DNA of 47,944 nucleotides from an uncultured Bacteroidales bacterium (lineage in GTDB: Bacteria > Bacteroidota > Bacteroidia > Bacteroidales > Bacteroidaceae): contig CACZCZ010000036.1 in assembly GCA_902779845.1 (NCBI GenBank), forward strand, positions 1-47,944. Direction: 5' to 3'. The position numbers and the translations under genes were made by a program. The notes beneath the pieces were generated by a model, which did not search any database, had not been told where the DNA came from, and was given only the letters and a program-made list of their open reading frames with translations. Every line of letters begins with the position of its first letter. Within the stretch, counting starts at the first letter, position 1. Positions 11,257 through 46,118 of the stretch are shown here, piece by piece.

Positions 11257-11306
11257 GTGAAAAGTGATAGGGTGAAAAGTGAAGAGTGAAAAATGGAAAA
11301 TGAAAA
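11257..11306 (+). repeat. GTGAAAARTGA-type simple repeat
   Basis: The spacer between the GT90 and sulfatase genes is made almost only of degenerate AGTGAAAAGTGA / GAAAAATGAAAA units. The family recurs at about 20950, 23134, 28734, 31765 and 45900. Confidence 0.7.
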
Positions 11307-13370
11307 ATGATGGGTGATAGCGTGAAAAACAAGATCATCTCGGCAACGCTGCTGCGCACGCCTTTAGCCTTTGTCTGCAACATGGCACTGGCCTACGTAG
11401 CCTATTGGCTGTGCCGCCTTGTCTTCTGGGCTGAGAACTACGCCGCATTCCCGCAGTTCTGGAGCGGCAACTCGCTCAAGGACATCTTCACAGGTGCTTG
11501 GATGTTCGACACCTCCGCCATCCTCTACACCAACGTCCTCTACGCCGTAGTGATGCTCTTGCCCCTGCACCTGAAGGAACACCGCTGGTGGCAGCAGGTC
11601 GCCAAAGGGCTCTTCGTGCTGGTGAACAGCATCGCCATCATCATCAACCTTTCGGATGCCGTCTATTTCCAATACACCGGCCGCCGCACCACGACCACCG
11701 TGTTCCAGGAATTCTCCAACGAGGGCAACATCGGCAGCATCGTGGGCGTGGAACTGTTGCGCCACTGGTACCTCGTAGTTGCCGGCATCGCGCTCATCGT
11801 CCTACTGTGGAAGGCCTACAGGCTACCCTCAGGCATTCTATCTCTTCACGCCGAAGGAAGCAGGTCTTCACGTCGAAAGCACAAGGTCTTCACGTCGAAG
11901 CTCCAAGGGCTGTGCTACTATCTGCTGCACCTCATCCTGTTCGTGGCCTACATCCCGCTGACCGTCATCGGCATGCGTGGCGGTGCCACCACAGCCGTGC
12001 GCCCCATCACCATCTCCAATGCAAACCAGTATGTCGCCCGTCCTGCCGAGGCCGCTGTCATCCTGAACACACCCTTCTCGCTCATCCGCACCGTCGGCAA
12101 GGCCAAGTTCATCACACCCGCTTACTTCGAAGATGCCAATGAGATGGGGAAGATCTACACTCCCATCCATCGGCCGCAGCCCGACAGTACCTTCGTAAAG
12201 AAGAATGTGGTCGTCTTCATCCTTGAGAGCTTCGGACGCGAATACATCGGCGCCCTCAACGAGACGCTCGAGGACGGCCACTATGCCGGCTACACGCCCT
12301 TCGTTGATGAGCTCTGCCGCGAGAGTGCCACCTTCCGATGGTCGTTCTGCAACGGCCGCAAGAGCATCGACGGTATGCCCAGCATTCTCTCCAGCATCCC
12401 CATGTTCGTAGAACCCTTCGTGCTCACGCCCGCTTCCATGAACACCTTTGGCGGACTGGCACAGGAGCTCGGCAAACACGGCTACGAGACCGCCTTCTTC
12501 CATGGTGCCGAGAATGGCAGCATGGGTTTCCAGGCCTTTGCCCGCAAGACAGGTTTTCAGAAATACTTCGGGCGCACGGAATACAATGCCGACCCGCGCT
12601 TCCGTGGCGACGAGGACTTCGACGGCCTCTGGGCCATCTGGGACGAGCCCTTCATGCAGTTCTACTGTGCCCAGATGTCGGAACTGAAAGAGCCTTTCAT
12701 GACAGCCCTCTTCAGCGCCACCAGCCACCACCCCTACAGCGTCCCCGAAGCCTACCGCGACACCTTCCCCGAGGAGGGCCTCGTCATCCACAAGTGCATC
12801 CGCTACACCGACCATGCCCTGCGCCGCTTCTTCGAGGAAGCCCGCAAGCAGCCATGGTTCCGGAACACCCTCTTCGTGCTCACCTCCGACCACACGAACC
12901 TCAGCGACCACGCCTTCTACCAGAGCGACATCGGCGGCTTCTGCTCGCCTATCATCTTCTATGATCCCAGCGGCACACTCTTCGAGCCCAGGATGCGCGA
13001 GGGCATCGCACAGCACATTGACATCATGCCAAGCGTGCTGGGACTGCTCCGCCACGACGAGCCCTACCTGGCCTTCGGCTGCGACCTCTTCCACACGCCC
13101 GCCGACAGCACCTGGGCCGTGAACTACAACAACGGCATCTACCAGTACGTCAAGCACAACCGTCTGCTGCAGTTCGACGGCATGCAGACACGCGCCGTCT
13201 ATGCCCTCAGCGACAGCCTCCTGGAGCATAACCTGCTCGGCACGGAGCCCCTGCAGACCCAGATGGAATGGGAATTAAAAGCCATCATCCAGCAATATAT
13301 GTCGCGCATGAACGAGGATCGTCTCACGCCGGCTGGCGACAACAGCGACCCCATGCACCATCAGCCCTAA
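11307..13370 (+). CDS. LtaS-like membrane sulfatase (phosphoglycerol or phosphoethanolamine transferase)
   Basis: This 687-residue inner-membrane enzyme of the alkaline-phosphatase superfamily has about five N-terminal membrane segments (roughly 12-240) and a periplasmic catalytic domain. Metal-site and nucleophile motifs are visible: FILESFGREY (about 304-313), GRKSIDGMPS (Ser near 353 as likely nucleophile) and TSDHTNLSDH (near 527). The family transfers a phospho-head-group to glycolipids or polysaccharides. Its position between GT90 and a lipid A acyltransferase suggests lipooligosaccharide decoration. Residues about 179-201 (LSLHAEGSRSSRRKHKVFTS) are encoded by three 22-bp repeat units inserted in frame in a loop between membrane helices. 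The start is uncertain: ATG 11307, ATG 11310 and GTG 11322 are all in frame within a repeat. Confidence 0.85.
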   Translation: MMGDSVKNKIISATLLRTPLAFVCNMALAYVAYWLCRLVFWAENYAAFPQFWSGNSLKDIFTGAWMFDTSAILYTNVLYAVVMLLPLHLKEHRWWQQVAKGLFVLVNSIAIIINLSDAVYFQYTGRRTTTTVFQEFSNEGNIGSIVGVELLRHWYLVVAGIALIVLLWKAYRLPSGILSLHAEGSRSSRRKHKVFTSKLQGLCYYLLHLILFVAYIPLTVIGMRGGATTAVRPITISNANQYVARPAEAAVILNTPFSLIRTVGKAKFITPAYFEDANEMGKIYTPIHRPQPDSTFVKKNVVVFILESFGREYIGALNETLEDGHYAGYTPFVDELCRESATFRWSFCNGRKSIDGMPSILSSIPMFVEPFVLTPASMNTFGGLAQELGKHGYETAFFHGAENGSMGFQAFARKTGFQKYFGRTEYNADPRFRGDEDFDGLWAIWDEPFMQFYCAQMSELKEPFMTALFSATSHHPYSVPEAYRDTFPEEGLVIHKCIRYTDHALRRFFEEARKQPWFRNTLFVLTSDHTNLSDHAFYQSDIGGFCSPIIFYDPSGTLFEPRMREGIAQHIDIMPSVLGLLRHDEPYLAFGCDLFHTPADSTWAVNYNNGIYQYVKHNRLLQFDGMQTRAVYALSDSLLEHNLLGTEPLQTQMEWELKAIIQQYMSRMNEDRLTPAGDNSDPMHHQP
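11848..11913 (+). repeat. three 22-bp palindrome-phased units inside the sulfatase gene
   Basis: Three units each contain TCTTCACGYCGAA and an AGG, with centres at about 11861.5, 11883.5 and 11905.5. The core AAGCACAAGGTCTT is close to the AAGAGCAAGGTCTT units of the intergenic arrays. Three units are 66 bp, so the reading frame is kept. Confidence 0.7.
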
Positions 13371-17744: not shown

Positions 17745-19232
17745 ATGAAAGCTAAAAAATTAATTATTACATTGCTGGCTCTTTTGACTAGTATTGGAGC
17801 ATCGGCCGCCTATCAGTGGACAGATGCGAATGGAACTACATGGAGTTTTACAACGTCGGAAGGTAATGCCACTTTGTATTATGGAAGTAATCAGCATTGT
17901 TGCATCAGTGGGACGATTCCAGCAAACCTGACTGTACCGTCTACGGTTTATATTGAAGATACGCCATATACAGTCACGTCCATTGGTCATTCGGCTTTCT
18001 ATAATTGCACCACCCTAACCTCTGTCACAATTCCCAATAGTGTGACCAGCATCGGCATGTTTGCCTTCTATGAATGCATCAGACTCACCTCAATCTCTAT
18101 TCCCAACAGTGTGACAATCATTAATCATAATGCTTTCTATTACAACACCGCCCTCACGTCCATTACAATTCCTAACAGCGTGACGACTATTGGAGATGAT
18201 GTATTCAGTCGGTGCTCCAGCCTAACTTCTATTACAATTCAGAACAGCGCGACGAGTATTGGTATTAGGGCTTTCTCCGGTTGCTCCAACCTTTCCTCTG
18301 TCACACTTGGTAACAGCGTGACAAGTATTGGGAATCAAGCATTCTCCGGTTGCTCGAATCTGACCTCTATCACCATCCCCAACAGTGTGACGAGTATTGG
18401 AAATAGAGCATTCATGAATTGCACCAGCCTAACCTCTTTCAGCATCCCCGAGAGTGTGACAGTTCTTGGTGAATCTATTTTCTCTGGTTGTACCAGCCTA
18501 ACTTCTGTGACAGTGGAATACGAAACACCACCTTCAATCCCTAATACATTCGCTGATATTACTAGACAAGCTACCCTTTATGTTCCCTATGGTTGTTGGA
18601 AGGCATATCGTTCTGCTGAACCCTGGTTGTATTTTTTGCATATTGATGAATTGCCGAATCCCAATGCTATTACCGTAGGGAGTACAGGCTATGTCACGTT
18701 CTGCTCACCGAAGGCTATGGACTTTACTGATGTCGACGGAATAAAGGCATACATTGCCAGCGGATTTAATCCCACTTCGGGAACCTTAGTACTTACTCGC
18801 GTCACGGAAGTACCTGCAGGCGAGGGACTTTATATCGTAGGCACTCCAGGCACATACAATGTTCCAAAAACCACTACTGATATGGTATATTCCAATCTGC
18901 TGAAAGGTGTGACAGCAGCAACAACTATCTATCCGACAGATGGTGATTATACGAACTTCATCCTCGCAAACGGTTCTCACGGTATCGGTTTCTACACCCT
19001 ATCAGAAGCAGGAGAACTCGCTGAAGGTAAGGCGTACCTGCAACTGCCGACGGCGAGCGTAGCGGGTGTTAAAGCCTTTAGCTTTACATTTGACGATGGG
19101 GAGGCGACTGGAATAAGTGACGTAAAGAATGTGCCCTCTATCGAAGGGATCTATAACCTACAAGGACAGCGCATCAGCCAGCCTCGTAAGGGCCTGAATA
19201 TTATCAATGGTAAGAAAGTAATCATCAAATAA
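17745..19232 (+). CDS. BspA-like leucine-rich repeat surface protein
   Basis: This 495-residue exported protein has a signal peptide (residues 1-about 22, cut near GASAA). Residues about 75-260 hold tandem 23-residue LRR_5 repeats with the pattern TSIGxxAFxxCxxLTSVTIPNSV. A short beta-rich module follows (ITVGSTGYVTFCSP onwards) that is common in Prevotella surface proteins, then the sorting tail YNLQGQRI...GLNIINGKKVIIK. BspA-type proteins bind host proteins or mediate cell adhesion. The repeats are also direct DNA repeats of 69 bp, open to copy-number change. It forms a likely transcription unit with the 55-residue peptide 11 bp downstream, ended by a hairpin at 19472. Confidence 0.88.
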   Translation: MKAKKLIITLLALLTSIGASAAYQWTDANGTTWSFTTSEGNATLYYGSNQHCCISGTIPANLTVPSTVYIEDTPYTVTSIGHSAFYNCTTLTSVTIPNSVTSIGMFAFYECIRLTSISIPNSVTIINHNAFYYNTALTSITIPNSVTTIGDDVFSRCSSLTSITIQNSATSIGIRAFSGCSNLSSVTLGNSVTSIGNQAFSGCSNLTSITIPNSVTSIGNRAFMNCTSLTSFSIPESVTVLGESIFSGCTSLTSVTVEYETPPSIPNTFADITRQATLYVPYGCWKAYRSAEPWLYFLHIDELPNPNAITVGSTGYVTFCSPKAMDFTDVDGIKAYIASGFNPTSGTLVLTRVTEVPAGEGLYIVGTPGTYNVPKTTTDMVYSNLLKGVTAATTIYPTDGDYTNFILANGSHGIGFYTLSEAGELAEGKAYLQLPTASVAGVKAFSFTFDDGEATGISDVKNVPSIEGIYNLQGQRISQPRKGLNIINGKKVIIK

Positions 19233-19243
19233 TTGCTATAATT

Positions 19244-19411
19244 ATGAAAGCTAAATATATAGTCCCTCAATTGGTGCAAGTCAACGTTCAAATGGAACGC
19301 ATGATTTCTGAATCCACAGTAAATCAAAAAGTGTATACAGACGATTCGCAATCCGCAGGAAATGCCCTGACAAAGGAAAATGACTGGGATAAAGATCTTT
19401 GGGATGATTAG
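19244..19411 (+). CDS. 55-residue companion peptide of a surface protein
   Basis: The peptide begins MKAKYIVPQLVQVNVQMERM and ends DWDKDLWDD. It starts 11 bp after the BspA-like stop. The ORF at 46436-46603, also 55 residues, has the same plan: MKxxYxxP at the start, a hydrophobic-polar V-x-x-Q strand, Ala/Glu-Ser near 24, then an acidic tail with [LI]WD[DR]. Both follow a surface protein with a sorting tail. Such short ORFs are frequent in Prevotella and Bacteroides but have no known function that I can name. There is no classical signal peptide. Confidence 0.65.
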   Translation: MKAKYIVPQLVQVNVQMERMISESTVNQKVYTDDSQSAGNALTKENDWDKDLWDD

Positions 19412-19471
19412 CACTTATAACTTCAAGAGAGTCAGGGGGGCACTTTCTCTGATTCTCTAACACAAGCAACA

Positions 19472-19520
19472 GATTGCCACAAGGTTTGCTGCCAGAGCGC
19501 CTTGTGGCAATCATTGTTTT
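19472..19520 (+). terminator. intrinsic terminator after the BspA-peptide unit
   Basis: There is a perfect 13-bp stem, GATTGCCACAAGG (19472-19484) with CCTTGTGGCAATC (19500-19512), 15-nt loop, then ATTGTTTT. Confidence 0.8.
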
Positions 19521-19521
19521 A

Positions 19522-19700
19522 AATCGGCACAGAGCTGCGGGGAGATCCATCGCCACGCATGTAGATGACGAAGACAATGGGGTCGCGAAATGCGACACCC
19601 TTGGCGGGACCCAGAAAACAATGCTCATCAACGAGAGCGGGCTCTATGCGCTCATCCTCTCGAACCAGCATGGGCGAAAGTCAACGGAAGTAAATTTGCT
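19522..19700 (+). pseudogene. fragment of a Bro-N phage antirepressor-like gene
   Basis: One frame reads RSIATHVDDEDNGVAKCDTL, then GGTQKTMLINESGLYALILS, a close match to the middle of Bro-N domain proteins (phage antirepressors). The part after ALILS is replaced by unrelated sequence and there is no proper N-terminus. It is a relic of a phage or mobile gene without other phage genes nearby. Confidence 0.65.
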
Positions 19701-19725
19701 TTGGTTGACTACTGCGAAATAGCTT

Positions 19726-20025
19726 AAAAGCCTACACCTCGCGCAAAATGAATGCAATTAGCTATTATACAACAGATTGCAGCGCGCGCGGCCCTACACA
19801 ACCTCGCGCAAGGTCGCGCAACCTCGCGCAGTCTCTACGCAAAATATGCGCATAATATGGGCATAATAGGTGTGTTGTTTCATCTTTAGACCTGCGCAGA
19901 AGGATAAATTGGGCTGCCTGCGCGTAGGGTTGCGCGACCTTGCGCGAGGTTGCGCAGGGGTTTCACGGTGATAACTAATTTATTTTATGGATGTTATGAG
20001 AATTCTGCGCGAGGTGTAGGCTTTT
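19726..20025. mobile_element. 300-bp element bounded by 20-bp perfect inverted repeats
   Basis: AAAAGCCTACACCTCGCGCA (19726-19745) is the exact reverse complement of 20006-20025. A second, 22-bp perfect inverted pair (19802-19823 and 19928-19949, core GCGCAAGGTCGCGC) is nested inside. The decamer ACCTCGCGCA recurs several times. No gene is inside. It could be a MITE-like non-autonomous element or a large cruciform or RNA fold; a clear target-site duplication was not found. Confidence 0.5.
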
Positions 20026-20065
20026 TCGTCATTTCTATATTTTTTGTCACGAAAGGGCTATTGGA

Positions 20066-20434
20066 AGAAGGTCAAGTCCTTCTGCCCGAAAGGACCAGTC
20101 CTTATGGCCTGAAGGACTTGACCTTCTTGCTTTTCTCACCAGTGAGAAAACATTTTCCCACAGGTGGGAAACGGCAATAGGCTATAGGGAAAACGCGTGC
20201 AGGCTATAGGGAAAACGGCTGCAGCCTATAGGGTGTTGAGTGGACCACCATGGTGATCCACCCGAAGGAGCATGGTGCAACGGCTTGAGATGCATGGTGC
20301 AAAGGCCTACGCAGCATGGTGCAAAGGCCTACGCAGCATGGTGCATCGGCCAACGCAGCATGGTGCGTTTTTTTGAAGACCTTGGTCTTAAGGCGTGAAG
20401 AGCATGGTCTTAAGGGCTGAAGAGCAAGGTCTTA
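20066..20434. repeat. array 1 of 22-bp-phased palindromes (17 units)
   Basis: Seventeen imperfect palindromes have centres at 20074.5 and then every 22 bp to 20426.5 without a single slip. Five sequence classes follow one another: AAGG...CCTT (3 units), TTTYYCAC...GTGRGAAA (2), CTATAG (3), CA|TGG with CACCATGGTG at best (6) and AAGA...TCTT (3). No protein-coding potential: 22 is not a multiple of three. Confidence 0.85.
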
Positions 20435-20535
20435 TTTTTTTCAAACCTTAGCTTCGAGACTTCATGCCCGCAAGGTAATGTCTTAACTTCTGCCCGAAGG
20501 GCGAGCGAAGCTATAACTCCTTAATTGAAGTTTCG

Positions 20536-20720
20536 GATGTAAATTTTGACCACAGATTTCACAGATTTCACGGATTACCTGTCCTGTAGTATGAATCATT
20601 TAATTCTATATTACACAGATTCAAATCTGCGCAATATGTAAAACAATTCATGATAACAAGTAGCTTTGAATCTGTTTAATCTGTTAAATCTGTGGTCTCT
20701 TATACTTCCGAAAGTTGAGG
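20536..20720. repeat. inverted-repeat-bounded segment with CACAGATT units
   Basis: GACCACAGATTT (20548-20559) is inverted at 20686-20697, and outside it AGTTTCGGA-like arms (about 20528 and 20710) continue the symmetry. Between them are further CACAGATT / AATCTGT copies. No gene is seen. Confidence 0.55.
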
Positions 20721-20928
20721 ACTTGACCTTACGGGCGGAAGGACTTGACCTTACGGGCGGAAGGACTTGACCTTCTTGTTTTTCTCATTGGTGGGAAAGC
20801 AGAAGGAGCATGGTGCAAAGGCCTGAGATGCATGGTGCAAAGGCCAACACACCATGGTGCGTTTTTTTGAAGACCTTGGTCTTAAAGCGTGAAGAGCATG
20901 ATCTTCGGGGCTGAAGACCTTGGTCTTA
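20716..20928. repeat. array 2 of 22-bp-phased palindromes (10 units)
   Basis: Centres are at 20723.5, 20745.5, 20767.5, 20789.5, 20810.5, 20832.5, 20854.5, 20876.5, 20898.5 and 20920.5 (one step of 21, the rest 22). The classes come in the same order as in array 1: AAGGACTTGACCTT, TTTCTCA...TGGGAAA, CATGG, AAGACCTTGGTCTT. Confidence 0.85.
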
Positions 20929-20946
20929 TTATTTCAGGCTTCTCAC

Positions 20947-21056
20947 ACCTTCATTTTTCACTCCTTCATTTTTCACTCCTTCATTTTTCACTCCTTCATT
21001 TTTCACTTTTCATTTTTCACTCCTTCATTTTTCACTTTTCATTTTTAGCTTTTCAC
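20947..21056. repeat. TTCATTTTTCACTCC tandem repeat
   Basis: Several 15-bp copies of TTCATTTTTCACTCC and shorter variants run into the 3' end of the GT87 gene on the minus strand, whose last residues (RVKS) are encoded by the repeat. Confidence 0.8.
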
Positions 21057-22363: not shown

Positions 22364-23167
22364 ATGGTACTTTTAAGCTTTGACACCGAGGAATTCGACG
22401 TCCCGCGCGAGCATGGCGTGACGTACGACACGCTGCGCGAGGGCATGGAGGTCTCCGTGGCCGGCACGCAGCGGATTCTTGATGTGCTGCAGATGAATGG
22501 CGTATGCGCCACCTTCTTCTGCACCGCTAACTTTGCGGAGCACGCCCCCGATGTGATCCAGCGCATTCTGGATGAGGGCCACGAGGTGGCCTGCCACGGC
22601 GTGGACCACTGGCAGCCGCAGGCCTCCGATGTGTTCCGTTCGAAGGAGATTGTGGAGCGCGTGGCTGGAAAAACCGTCTATGGCTACCGCCAACCTCGCA
22701 TGTTCCCCGTCTCTGACGAGGCCATCCGCGAGGCGGGCTACGCCTACAACTCATCGCTGAACCCCGCCTTCATCCCAGGTCGCTATATGCACCTGACGGC
22801 ACCCCGCACGTGGTTCAGGAAGGACGGCGTGATGCAGATTCCGGCGTCTGTGACGCCACTGCTGCGTTTCCCGCTGTTCTGGCTGTCGCTGCACAACCTG
22901 CCAGAAGGGCTCTACCACTGGATGGTACGCCGCACGCTGAAGCACGACGGCTATCTGGTCACCTACTTCCACCCCTGGGAGTTCTACGAACTGCGCGAGC
23001 ACCCCGAGCTGCGAATGCCTTTCATCATCCGCAACCACAGCGGCCAGGAACTGTGCGACCGTCTGGACCGCCTCATCTTGATGCTGAAAGCCGAAGGCCA
23101 CTCCTTCATCACCTTTAAAGAGTTTGTGGAGAAAGTGAAAAATGAAAGAGTGAAAAGTGAAAAATAA
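22364..23167 (+). CDS. polysaccharide deacetylase (NodB homology domain)
   Basis: This 267-residue protein has the NodB fold hallmarks of carbohydrate esterase family 4: SFDTEEFDVP at the very N-terminus (catalytic and metal Asp), HEVACHGVDHW (metal histidines) and TYFHPWEFY near the end. It would remove N-acetyl groups from a polysaccharide or lipid-linked sugar. There is no signal peptide, so it probably acts in the cytoplasm on a precursor. ATG 22364 is the natural start, since the motif begins at residue 6. The last eleven residues (KVKNERVKSEK) are encoded by a GTGAAAAATGAA-type repeat. It begins the glycan operon that continues to 28614. Confidence 0.85.
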   Translation: MVLLSFDTEEFDVPREHGVTYDTLREGMEVSVAGTQRILDVLQMNGVCATFFCTANFAEHAPDVIQRILDEGHEVACHGVDHWQPQASDVFRSKEIVERVAGKTVYGYRQPRMFPVSDEAIREAGYAYNSSLNPAFIPGRYMHLTAPRTWFRKDGVMQIPASVTPLLRFPLFWLSLHNLPEGLYHWMVRRTLKHDGYLVTYFHPWEFYELREHPELRMPFIIRNHSGQELCDRLDRLILMLKAEGHSFITFKEFVEKVKNERVKSEK

Positions 23168-25466: not shown

Positions 25467-26668
25467 TGAGCGTTTCCGCCATACGCCGCTTCTTCAGCCA
25501 TCCATTCTTCAGCGACCGTCGCACGCTGTTGGGGCTGTGGTTGCTGCTGCCTGTGGCGGCTGCGTTGGTCAAGATCACGAAGCACCACAACAACTTCCTC
25601 ATCTTCCGAGGGGTCTTCCGCCACACGCTGCAGCAGACCTCGCTCTACGCCCCCTACCCCGACGAATACTTCGACACGAACCACTACGGTCCCTTCTTCA
25701 GCCTCATCATAGCCCCCTTCACCGCACTACCCGAATGGTTCGGGCTGCTGGCTTGGCTGGTGGCGCTGTCAATGTTGCTGTATGTGGCCATCCGCCAGCT
25801 TCCCGTTCGCGACGGGGTGCAGACGGCAACACTGTGGTTCTGCGCTCACGAGCTACTCACGGCACTGCTGATGGCGCAGTTCAACATCGCCACCGTGGCA
25901 GGCATCGTGCTCACCTTCGTCTGCCTGCAGCGCGAGCGTGACTTCTGGGCCGCATTCTGGCTGATGCTGGGCACCTTCGTGAAGCTCTACGGCATCGTGG
26001 GGCTGGCTTTCTTCTTCTTCTCCAAGCACAAAGGACGTTTCATCGCCTCGCTCCTGTTCTGGGCTCTCGTGATGTTCGCAGCCCCCATGCTCATCAGCAG
26101 CCCTGAATACATCATCAGCCAGTATGGCGAGTGGTACCAGAGCCTCACCGCCAAAAATGCAGAGAACATCTTTGCCGGCGGACAGAACATCTCGCTGCTG
26201 GGAATGGTGAGAAAGATATCCGGCTGTGCCACGTACAGCGACCTCTGGCTTATCGTGCCCGGAATGGTGCTGATGGCTCTGCCCTACCTGCGGTGGCGGC
26301 AGTTCCAGCACCTACCCTTCCGTCTGGCCATCGTGGCCTCGGTGCTCATGTTCACCGTTCTCTTCAGCACCGGCAGCGAATCCAGCACCTATATCATCGC
26401 CTTTGTGGGCGTGGCACTATGGTACTGGACAGCGCCATGGCAGCGTTCGCGCTGGGACATCGCCCTGATGGTCTTCGCCTTCATCCTCACCTCGATGTCG
26501 CCCTCCGACCTCTTCCCGACCTACATCCGCAAGACATGGGTCGTTCCCTATGCCCTGAAAGCCCTCCCCATCGTCCTCATCTGGTTCCGTCTCACCTGGG
26601 AGCTTCTACGAAGAGACTACGGGGAGGGACTCGCGAGCGAGGAGTTTAAGGAGGTGGAAGATTCATGA
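25463..26668 (+). CDS. GT87-type (DUF2029) polytopic glycosyltransferase, paralogue
   Basis: This 401-residue membrane protein is similar along its whole length to the GT87 protein encoded at 21045-22244 (shared: HYGPxFxxxIAPFxALP; KLYGIxGLAFFFF; LISSPEYI/VV.QY..WY.SLTxKNAxN; ISLLGMVRKxxxCATYSDLWLxVPG). It would transfer a sugar from a polyprenyl carrier outside the membrane. ATGA overlap with the preceding stop indicates coupling; a second ATG at 25466 is also possible. The last codons (EDS) and stop arise from a GATTCATGATTCAAG repeat that continues downstream. Confidence 0.82.
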   Translation: MMSVSAIRRFFSHPFFSDRRTLLGLWLLLPVAAALVKITKHHNNFLIFRGVFRHTLQQTSLYAPYPDEYFDTNHYGPFFSLIIAPFTALPEWFGLLAWLVALSMLLYVAIRQLPVRDGVQTATLWFCAHELLTALLMAQFNIATVAGIVLTFVCLQRERDFWAAFWLMLGTFVKLYGIVGLAFFFFSKHKGRFIASLLFWALVMFAAPMLISSPEYIISQYGEWYQSLTAKNAENIFAGGQNISLLGMVRKISGCATYSDLWLIVPGMVLMALPYLRWRQFQHLPFRLAIVASVLMFTVLFSTGSESSTYIIAFVGVALWYWTAPWQRSRWDIALMVFAFILTSMSPSDLFPTYIRKTWVVPYALKALPIVLIWFRLTWELLRRDYGEGLASEEFKEVEDS

Positions 26669-26757
26669 TTCAAGATTCAAGATTCAAGATTTAAGTTTAA
26701 GAGTTTAAGAGTTTAAGAGTTTAAGAAGTTTAAGAGTTTAAGAAGTTCAAGCTAATA
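26663..26757 (+). repeat. GATTCAA and GTTTAAGA tandem repeats
   Basis: Copies of GATTCAAGATTCAAG are followed by six or seven GTTTAAGA(A) units. They begin at the GT87 stop codon and fill most of the spacer before the ABC exporter gene. Confidence 0.8.
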
Positions 26758-39257: not shown

Positions 39258-39515
39258 CCCATTCCTTCTCTCGATGTCAGCGCAAAATTGCGCCCACATA
39301 TCCCTAATTTTTCATGGAGTTTTGACAACCTTCATCATTTTCTTGTTAATCAAGGAACGCGCCGCCACATCATGTCTTACCCTAAAAACGTTGAATCTGT
39401 AACGCCTCGTAATTTTTTTGTACCTTTTGCTGTACTGTGGTGCAAAGGCCAACGGAGTTAGGCGTGATTGGTTTTATCACGTGTGAGAAATGCGTGAAGA
39501 GGAAGGCTCGTTGGG

Positions 39516-39600
39516 TGGATCACCAAGGTGGTCCACTCGAAAGAGCTTGGTCTTCATGCCGTAAGAGCAAGGTCTTCCGACGAGTCCCACTAATGGGACA
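39516..39600. repeat. array 3 of 22-bp-phased palindromes
   Basis: Clear centres are at 39525.5 (TGGATCACCAAGGTGGTCCA), 39547.5 (AAGAGCTTGGTCTT), 39569.5 (AAGAGCAAGGTCTT) and 39591.5 (GTCCCA/TGGGAC). Degenerate units (GTGGTGCAAAGGCC at 39437, TTTTATCACGTGTGAGAAA at 39480, AAGAGGAAGGCTC at 39503) extend it to the left with less exact spacing. The remainder of 39258-39920 shows no gene; degenerate CCTTCATCAT copies occur there. Confidence 0.75.
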
Positions 39601-39926
39601 CGGCATAGCGACTATACGTATTCGATGTTGTGCTTCATGATATTTGGACTACCTTCATCATTTGTGGCCTAAGGGGCTGATAAGTAGGTAACTATCTCAA
39701 AATATACCTTCATCATACCTACATGGAATCTGCATGGCGACTTCATGATGAATCTTTTTCGCAAGCATGAGCCCGCTAAAATTGAAAAATGACAGTACTA
39801 TGTAGGTTTGATGTAGGTTTATTTCGAAGCAATTCTCTATATTTCAGTCGTTTAAGTCGGAAATGATGAAGGTTGCTGGAACTCTATGTATGCCGTTTTT
39901 TCCATGCCAGCTACAGGGTTATAATG

Positions 39927-45884: not shown

Positions 45885-45960
45885 TTTTCACTTTTTTTTC
45901 GTCATTCATCATTCGTCACTCGTCATTCATCATTCGTCACTCTTCATTTTTCATTCGTCA
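45885..45960. repeat. TCATTCGTCACTCG-type simple repeat
   Basis: Alternating CATTCATCATTCGTCACT units and TTCATTTTTCATT belong to the same broad family as the GTGAAAAATGAA repeats (opposite strand). Confidence 0.7.
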
Positions 45961-45988
45961 CCTCGCGCAGCCCTGGTGGAACTCGCTG

Positions 45989-46116
45989 CAAGAGCATGGT
46001 CTTCCGAGCATAAGAGCAAGGTCTTACAGCCATAAGAGCAAGGTCTTATTGTTTTTGCCATTAGTGGCAAAAAGGTTTCTCATAGGTGAGAAAATGTTTT
46101 ATCATTGGTGAGAAAA
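45989..46116. repeat. array 4 of 22-bp-phased palindromes (6 units)
   Basis: Centres are at 45996.5, 46018.5, 46040.5 (AAGAGCATGGTCTT or AAGAGCAAGGTCTT), 46062.5 (TTTTTGCCA/TGGCAAAAA), 46084.5 (TTTCTCA/TGAGAAA) and 46106.5 (TTTTATCA/TGAGAAAA), each exactly 22 bp from the last. Confidence 0.85.
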
Positions 46117-46118
46117 GC

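Follow-up and report, generated by a model that had tools for sequence, protein, structure and literature searches.

Short imperfect palindromic units that occur many times per genome, clustered between genes, are described as repetitive extragenic palindromic (REP) sequences and bacterial interspersed mosaic elements (BIME). In the available portions of two accounts (PMC3733652, PMC8266576) such units prefer gene 3' ends and convergent gaps, are occasionally inserted in genes, and use words that differ by species; REP words turn over together with their transposases, according to the available text of the second (PMC8266576). The window analysed here, the whole stretch of 47,944 nucleotides from an uncultured Bacteroidales bacterium (contig CACZCZ010000036.1), contains an array of 17 imperfect palindromes (20064..20437) whose family resembles REP/BIME in these respects, but its units are joined without spacer and one 22-bp step is common to units of unlike sequence. 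Identity with REP and the REP-associated tyrosine transposase (RAYT) is rejected because the tag is absent and no Y1 transposase was found in the same genome: GTAG and CGTC begin 2 and 0, respectively, of 1212 half-sites (9 and 2 within the first six bases), and RAYT (Y1_Tnp, PF01797) has no match in this genome, which is 85.9% complete. The BrickBuilt repeats of Porphyromonas gingivalis, as far as the accessible part of their description goes (PMC4596501), are likewise intergenic spacerless tandem units from Bacteroidales that vary in number between strains and are associated with miniature inverted-repeat transposable elements (MITEs), but they are built of a single 23-nt unit; as a 23-nt repeat with leader and tail, BrickBuilt is rejected because the step here is 22 and the units are several and unlike. 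Rickettsia palindromic elements (RPE), in the portion of the account available (PMC3733652), are palindromic repeats found in frame in protein genes, which is matched here by one stretch of 66 bp, equal in length to three modules, although most members of this family lie between genes. A literature search that covered few subscription journals listed neither an account of such 22-bp arrays from Prevotella-like bacteria nor one of a repeat whose sequence drifts with its symmetry and step kept. In phased operator and iteron arrays, dimer-sized sites follow each other at one or two helical turns and share a face of the DNA; to our knowledge, the known arrays of this type repeat one sequence at one or few loci. 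The constant helical spacing of dyads is found here too, but with unlike words on one lattice at about 41 loci. Among named kinds REP/BIME comes nearest, and the arrays are placed as a variant of interspersed palindromic repeats that may be a new kind. The best reading, preferred tentatively and slightly more likely to be wrong than right, is that they are mosaic intergenic arrays of duplex-DNA sites that a putative dimeric protein would bind.

The original prediction placed the 17 palindromes at centres 20074.5 + 22n, and every one of these centres has the highest symmetry score within 5 bp on either side. With 9 arm positions each, the scores are, in order, 7, 6, 6, 8, 8, 4, 4, 6, 8, 5, 4, 6, 6, 8, 7, 7 and 5, compared to a window-wide mean of 2.24 (standard deviation 1.31); the weakest units, with a score of 4 each, are two of CTATAG and one of GCATGGTGC. 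In the shuffle control that had been proposed, the phase statistic of the array at period 22 (10.1) exceeds all 500 dinucleotide shuffles, whose maximum is 3.6 at this period and 5.2 when all periods between 8 and 44 are considered. The unrelated classes of the original prediction do share one phase, but like words stand together, AAGG in three successive units, TTTTCTC/CCC in two, CTATAG in three, GTGGACCACC in one, GCATGGTGC in five and AAGAC/GC in three. Each such run of like units is an ordinary tandem repeat, and the unusual part is the one phase common to unlike runs. The modules of the array are the following:

20064..20129, no strand: class G, three modules (AAGGTCAAGTCCTT / AAGGACCAGTCCTT / AAGGACTTGACCTT), with the cores of units 1 and 3 mutually reverse-complementary
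20130..20173, no strand: class T, two modules (TTTTCTCACCAGTGAGAAAA, TTTTCCCACAGGTGGGAAA)
20174..20239, no strand: class P, three modules with a CTATAG core, including two of the three weakest dyads
20240..20261, no strand: module K, single (GTGGACCACCATGGTGATCCAC), a 22-mer word that is present in relatives too
20262..20371, no strand: class H, five modules of GCATGGTGC type
20372..20437, no strand: class A, three modules (AAGACCTTGGTCTT / AAGAGCATGGTCTT / AAGAGCAAGGTCTT)

The phase statistic at period 11 (10.5) is as high as that at period 22 because junctions between like palindromes also form dyads. Junctions between unlike modules have a dyad score of 2.52, compared to 2.45 for random pairings, and therefore the unit is 22 bp; an 11-bp lattice is rejected because the junction dyads exist only between like modules.

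The array was predicted as one single element, but it belongs to a genome-wide family: a similarity search of the same genome with the window array gives at least 124 matches (40 of 64 candidates were scored), which manual grouping assigns to approximately 41 array loci. The window and 37 fetched loci (338 kb in total) contain 48 array rows with 238 dyads at period 22 compared to 0 to 7 rows for any one of the other periods between 18 and 26, some rows at all periods alike being one array counted in two registers. Strong dyads, orthologous copies included, are spaced 22 bp apart in 116 cases, 21 bp in 5 and 23 bp in 5, with further peaks at 44, 66 and 88 bp. With identical pairs removed, dyads of unlike words still peak at 22, 44, 66 and 88 bp (43, 42, 43 and 36 pairs), compared to 0 to 9 pairs at distances other than multiples of 11, and the peaks at odd multiples of 11 are junctions of like modules. 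These loci were picked by similarity to the window array, and the periodicity test itself is sequence-free; the claim that phase and two-fold symmetry are kept over unlike words is thus borne out, as the spacing peaks persist for unlike pairs.

The word K as a full palindrome occurs on 57 stretches among 84,980 species genomes. The record titles of 49 of these stretches name Bacteroidaceae, Prevotellaceae or Bacteroidales, and many of the titles indicate ruminants. The other 8, mostly in high-GC genera, are presumed to be chance matches and were left out uninspected (L079, L085, L086, L106, L114, L116, L121 and L131, from Cellulomonas, Pseudoxanthomonas, Actinomadura, Nonomuraea, Kribbella, Sphaerimonospora, Acidobacteria and Corynebacterium) before the mismatch, base-pair class and array-homology counts given below. 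K is present in 2 of 251 genomes of a family sample and 1 of 247 of an order sample, the window's own genome being in both and all of them belonging to its genus. Eleven genomes of the same genus that have no BLAST match to the window array (356 kb) contain 6 rows at period 22 in new words, which are 5 distinct arrays in 4 of the 11 genomes, compared to 0 to 3 rows at each other period from 16 to 29; three more genomes of the genus (104 kb) contain 3 rows at 22, versus 1 at 21 and 1 at 23.

Mismatches between the arms bear on whether the module is read as duplex DNA or as RNA. In these and the setting, array-homology, orientation and base-pair class counts, arrays with a mean score below 6 and overlapping second registers are excluded. 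Among 390 units of 89 arrays, the arms contain 202 G·T and 206 A·C mismatches, so that the frequent G·T pairing of REP arms, which would be compatible with a role as RNA, is not found here, and the strand skew per array (chi-square 76.7 over 79 arrays) indicates no lean to one strand; a simulated strand bias of 67%, for which the counts per array were entered by hand, gives a chi-square that low in 1.4% of runs. Because the mismatches have neither a G·U nor a strand preference, reading the module as double-stranded DNA and not RNA is supported. Over 606 distinct modules, 90% keep the strong (G or C) or weak (A or T) class (S/W) of the third pair counted from the centre and 63% keep its base, and 162 of 225 mismatches there keep the class, compared to an expectation of one third (117 of 140 in AAG, 14 of 19 in CACC and 12 of 15 in CG[TA] words). 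Retention of S/W without the base is natural for minor-groove contact in duplex DNA and unnatural for a hairpin stem. Asymmetric AAG units are oriented randomly with respect to diverged neighbours (15 same, 13 opposite). Related arrays also differ by changes in both arms (TCCCAC/GTGGGA versus TTCCAC/GTGGAA), and the compensatory changes that the original prediction proposed to look for thus occur both between arrays and inside one coding gene described below.

In seven comparisons of orthologues, 23 of 766 positions of arrays are changed (3.0%) compared to 156 of 2354 positions of flanks (6.6%; p=1e-4). Taken together, a step held so strictly, symmetry of a duplex type and change slower than in the flanks point to sites of a dimeric protein on one face of the helix. 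Of the roles suggested in the original prediction, cooperative sites for such a protein would fit best. The 22-bp two-fold-symmetric modules of several classes are joined without spacer, so that dyads are spaced about two helical turns apart and would lie on one side of the DNA. Most probably each module would be the site of one dimer of a DNA-binding protein, or of one of a few paralogues that differ in specificity, and adjacent dimers, set at a constant step, would be able to touch and build a filament along the array. The words seem to drift between species while the geometry stays, as if the specificity of the protein and its sites were co-evolving. A wider form of this proposal, possible but less secure, is that the 22-bp dyad lattice is kept across the genus while its words turn over, and that a fast-evolving dimeric protein (or a paralogue per class, with K and F as boundary sites) forms a phased filament on dozens of arrays, the geometry being the inherited character of a new kind of element. 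If the arrays are protein scaffolds, the genus is a natural series of fixed spacing and changing sequence from which the specificity code of a DNA-binding family could be read in genomes; even if they are selfish, a sequence that drifts with its symmetry and step kept is a test case for the origin and spread of palindromic repeats. The carriers are uncultured, mostly rumen bacteria, which have the arrays between many of their genes.

Several results weigh against sites for a dimeric protein, of which the partner is putative and its binding deduced from the DNA. Detection of arrays requires dyads in phase, and although the spacing counts do not, their loci were chosen by similarity. The proposal that relatives carry dyads at 22-bp intervals in other words holds within the genus, where the sample taken without similarity selection is small, and is not borne out in the stretches of other genera that were scanned, where period 22 is not enriched (one sample of about 180 kb has 2 weak arrays, in G107 and G111, and another of about 302 kb has none). 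The slower change of arrays is reversed in one pair (L226/L227, 11 of 88 positions of the array versus 18 of 356 of the flanks); the window locus enters two of the few orthologue pairs, and the flanks are partly coding. Retention of S/W is also observed elsewhere in AAG words (23 of 28 mismatches at the fifth pair, 81 of 122 at the centre), is absent from unclassed words (19 of 52) and is weak in the unselected sample (5 of 9), and since the units are related by duplication, these counts are not independent. With near-identical neighbours included, 31 pairs of AAG units have the same orientation versus 13 opposite (17 arrays uniform, 13 mixed). The setting of the arrays, which rests on rough calling of open reading frames (ORFs), is tandem for 32, convergent for 22 and divergent for 9 of 63 arrays with two called neighbours, with 7 more arrays inside called ORFs, and in tandem gaps 22 of 32 arrays are nearer to a 3' end and 10 to a 5' end. 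Of 20 proteins scanned, 19 flank arrays and one, a sulfatase, contains a decayed array; 18 have a Pfam match at 1e-6, in unrelated families (FtsZ, UvrA, MTHFR, GT87, GH43, a hybrid sensor kinase and others), and a link to one gene function is rejected on this basis. The 3'-end preference and the unrelated neighbours also fit a passive repeat that avoids promoters.

Such a repeat, mosaic, palindromic and selfish (similar to BIMEs, MITEs or minisatellites) and without host function, is a substantial possibility, although on balance a doubtful one. Its units would multiply by slippage and recombination, template switching would keep the arms symmetric, and a putative recombinase would copy blocks. 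It accounts well for spread and for changes of units: between the array at L063 and its copy in G041 (L109/L155) whole 22-bp units are gained or lost, and the flanks of the two are unrelated, L063 and L155 being homologous in the array and not beyond it; the right flank of L063 is located elsewhere in G041, at L181, where a dyad scan of the 8 kb fetched finds no array; and L052 and L063, in one genome, have a common block of array (83% over 333 bp) without shared flanks. The genomes compared are metagenome-assembled, and a single case may be a misjoin. In these comparisons arrays gain and lose whole 22-bp units and appear to be copied in blocks to other loci, which is also part of the reading as protein sites. 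A MITE-like element lies beside the window array:

19727..20030, no strand: MITE-like element, about 300 bp long, that has inverted ends AAAGCCTACACCTCGCGCA, contains GCGCGAGG repeats and neighbours the first array

Ten other fetched loci also have a related element no more than about 150 bp from an array, which makes 11 of the loci searched with the window. Breaks of homology are observed at array edges, and the inverted ends belong to the neighbouring MITE-like element. The unrelated neighbouring genes also favour a selfish repeat, as do modules inside a coding gene, which has the following feature in the window:

11829..11894, + strand: decayed 66-bp stretch, as long as three modules, in frame inside the sulfatase-domain ORF 11304-13370

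A loop of 47 residues in the sulfatase holds the 66-bp stretch in five genomes, this one included, and dyads at a 22-bp step are present in the loop in four of the five (L281-L284) and decayed in this genome. The arms differ jointly between species (AAGACCA.TGGTCTT, AAGACCG.CGGTCTT, AAGGCCT.ATACCTT). Among 14 other sulfatase homologues the loop is shorter in 12 (28 to 45 residues) and longer in two (54, 52), in a comparison that covers 20 of 30 loci fetched (L298 gave no segment); because loop length varies for other causes too, insertion of modules into the sulfatase gene is only a possibility. A selfish repeat leaves unexplained the recurrence of 22 bp with unlike words, the slower change, overall, of arrays compared to flanks and the S/W pattern.

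It is unlikely that the arrays are substrates of an enzyme that acts on single strands or cruciform hairpins (similar to REP/RAYT, or another recombinase), each module being a short hairpin. The arms reach near the centre, the units multiply and move, and the turnover of REP words with transposases, in the part of PMC8266576 available, offers a precedent; a Y1_Tnp gene is present in 36 of 139 genomes of the genus, including the array-bearing G013 and G078. However, PF01797 has no match in the window's own genome or in eight other array-bearing genomes (G003, G006, G015, G016, G041, G604, G616 and G618), the G·G/C·C or A·A/T·T pairs near the centre would weaken a hairpin, and diverged neighbouring units have no strand coherence.

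Least probable is an RNA element, either a multi-hairpin transcript as the original prediction allowed or strings of bidirectional terminators, which the favourable folding energies of the two strands (z -6.3 and -8.2), the terminator-like sites in 19230-21050 (7 versus 2.0 in shuffles, 5 of the 7 within the two arrays of that interval) and the preference for 3' ends and convergent gaps would favour, but which is rejected as the main reading for want of any G·U or strand preference in the arm mismatches, the good folding on both strands being expected because any palindrome folds well; Rfam models have no match to the window at gathering score, and terminators alone are rejected because arrays also occupy divergent gaps (9 of 63).

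The vocabulary of modules across loci, for which the class labels follow author-made rules that leave 168 of 673 units unclassed, includes as frequent half-words AAGA(C/G)C, AAGG(A/T)C, TCTCAC/TGCCAC/TATCAC after T-runs, TTCCAC (F), ATCACC/ACCACC (K), CACACC and CTA types. All 41 runs of K and 33 of the 34 of F consist of a single module, and A and T often form runs of 2 to 4. Neighbouring classes exceed shuffles for A-F (29 versus 18.1), A-T (29 versus 21.1) and A-K (16 versus 9.8), and fall below them for A-G (11 versus 17.4). AAG-class units of G000 and G103 differ in their centre dinucleotide (p=3e-4), a difference that is only suggestive because the other three genomes have few units. Words of ACGTAT.ATACGT type are observed beside a K module in three loci of relatives (L077, L095, L110). 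On 10 stretches from the genome of the isolate RGIG4948, K modules occur as pairs at a distance of 66 bp, which leaves space for two other modules in between (L081, L083, L092, L096, L104, L111, L112, L115, L118 and L134).

The first and second arrays of the window lie in a convergent gap between a gene for a BspA-type leucine-rich repeat protein and a GT87 gene, and two further arrays are present:

20713..20931, no strand: second array (G three times, T, H three times, A three times), an abridged form of the first that lacks P and K
39515..39602, no strand: array K-A-A-F, with orthologous copies in two relatives
45986..46117, no strand: array A-A-A-T-T-T

The second array has the class order of the first and a single 21-bp step, from 20789.5 to 20810.5. 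Collections of phages and plasmids have no blastn match to the window array, and the K pattern has 0 matches in viral_contigs; a phage or plasmid origin is rejected on these grounds. A tandem repeat of TTCATTTTTCACTCC (15/29 bp, 20943-21046) directly follows the second array and lies close to the 3' end of the GT87 gene, and other short AT-rich tandem repeats are located at 23132-23163, 26658-26751 and 45898-45961. One of the longest arrays adjoins a gene for an Abi-like protein (PF07751; L052:4223-5326).
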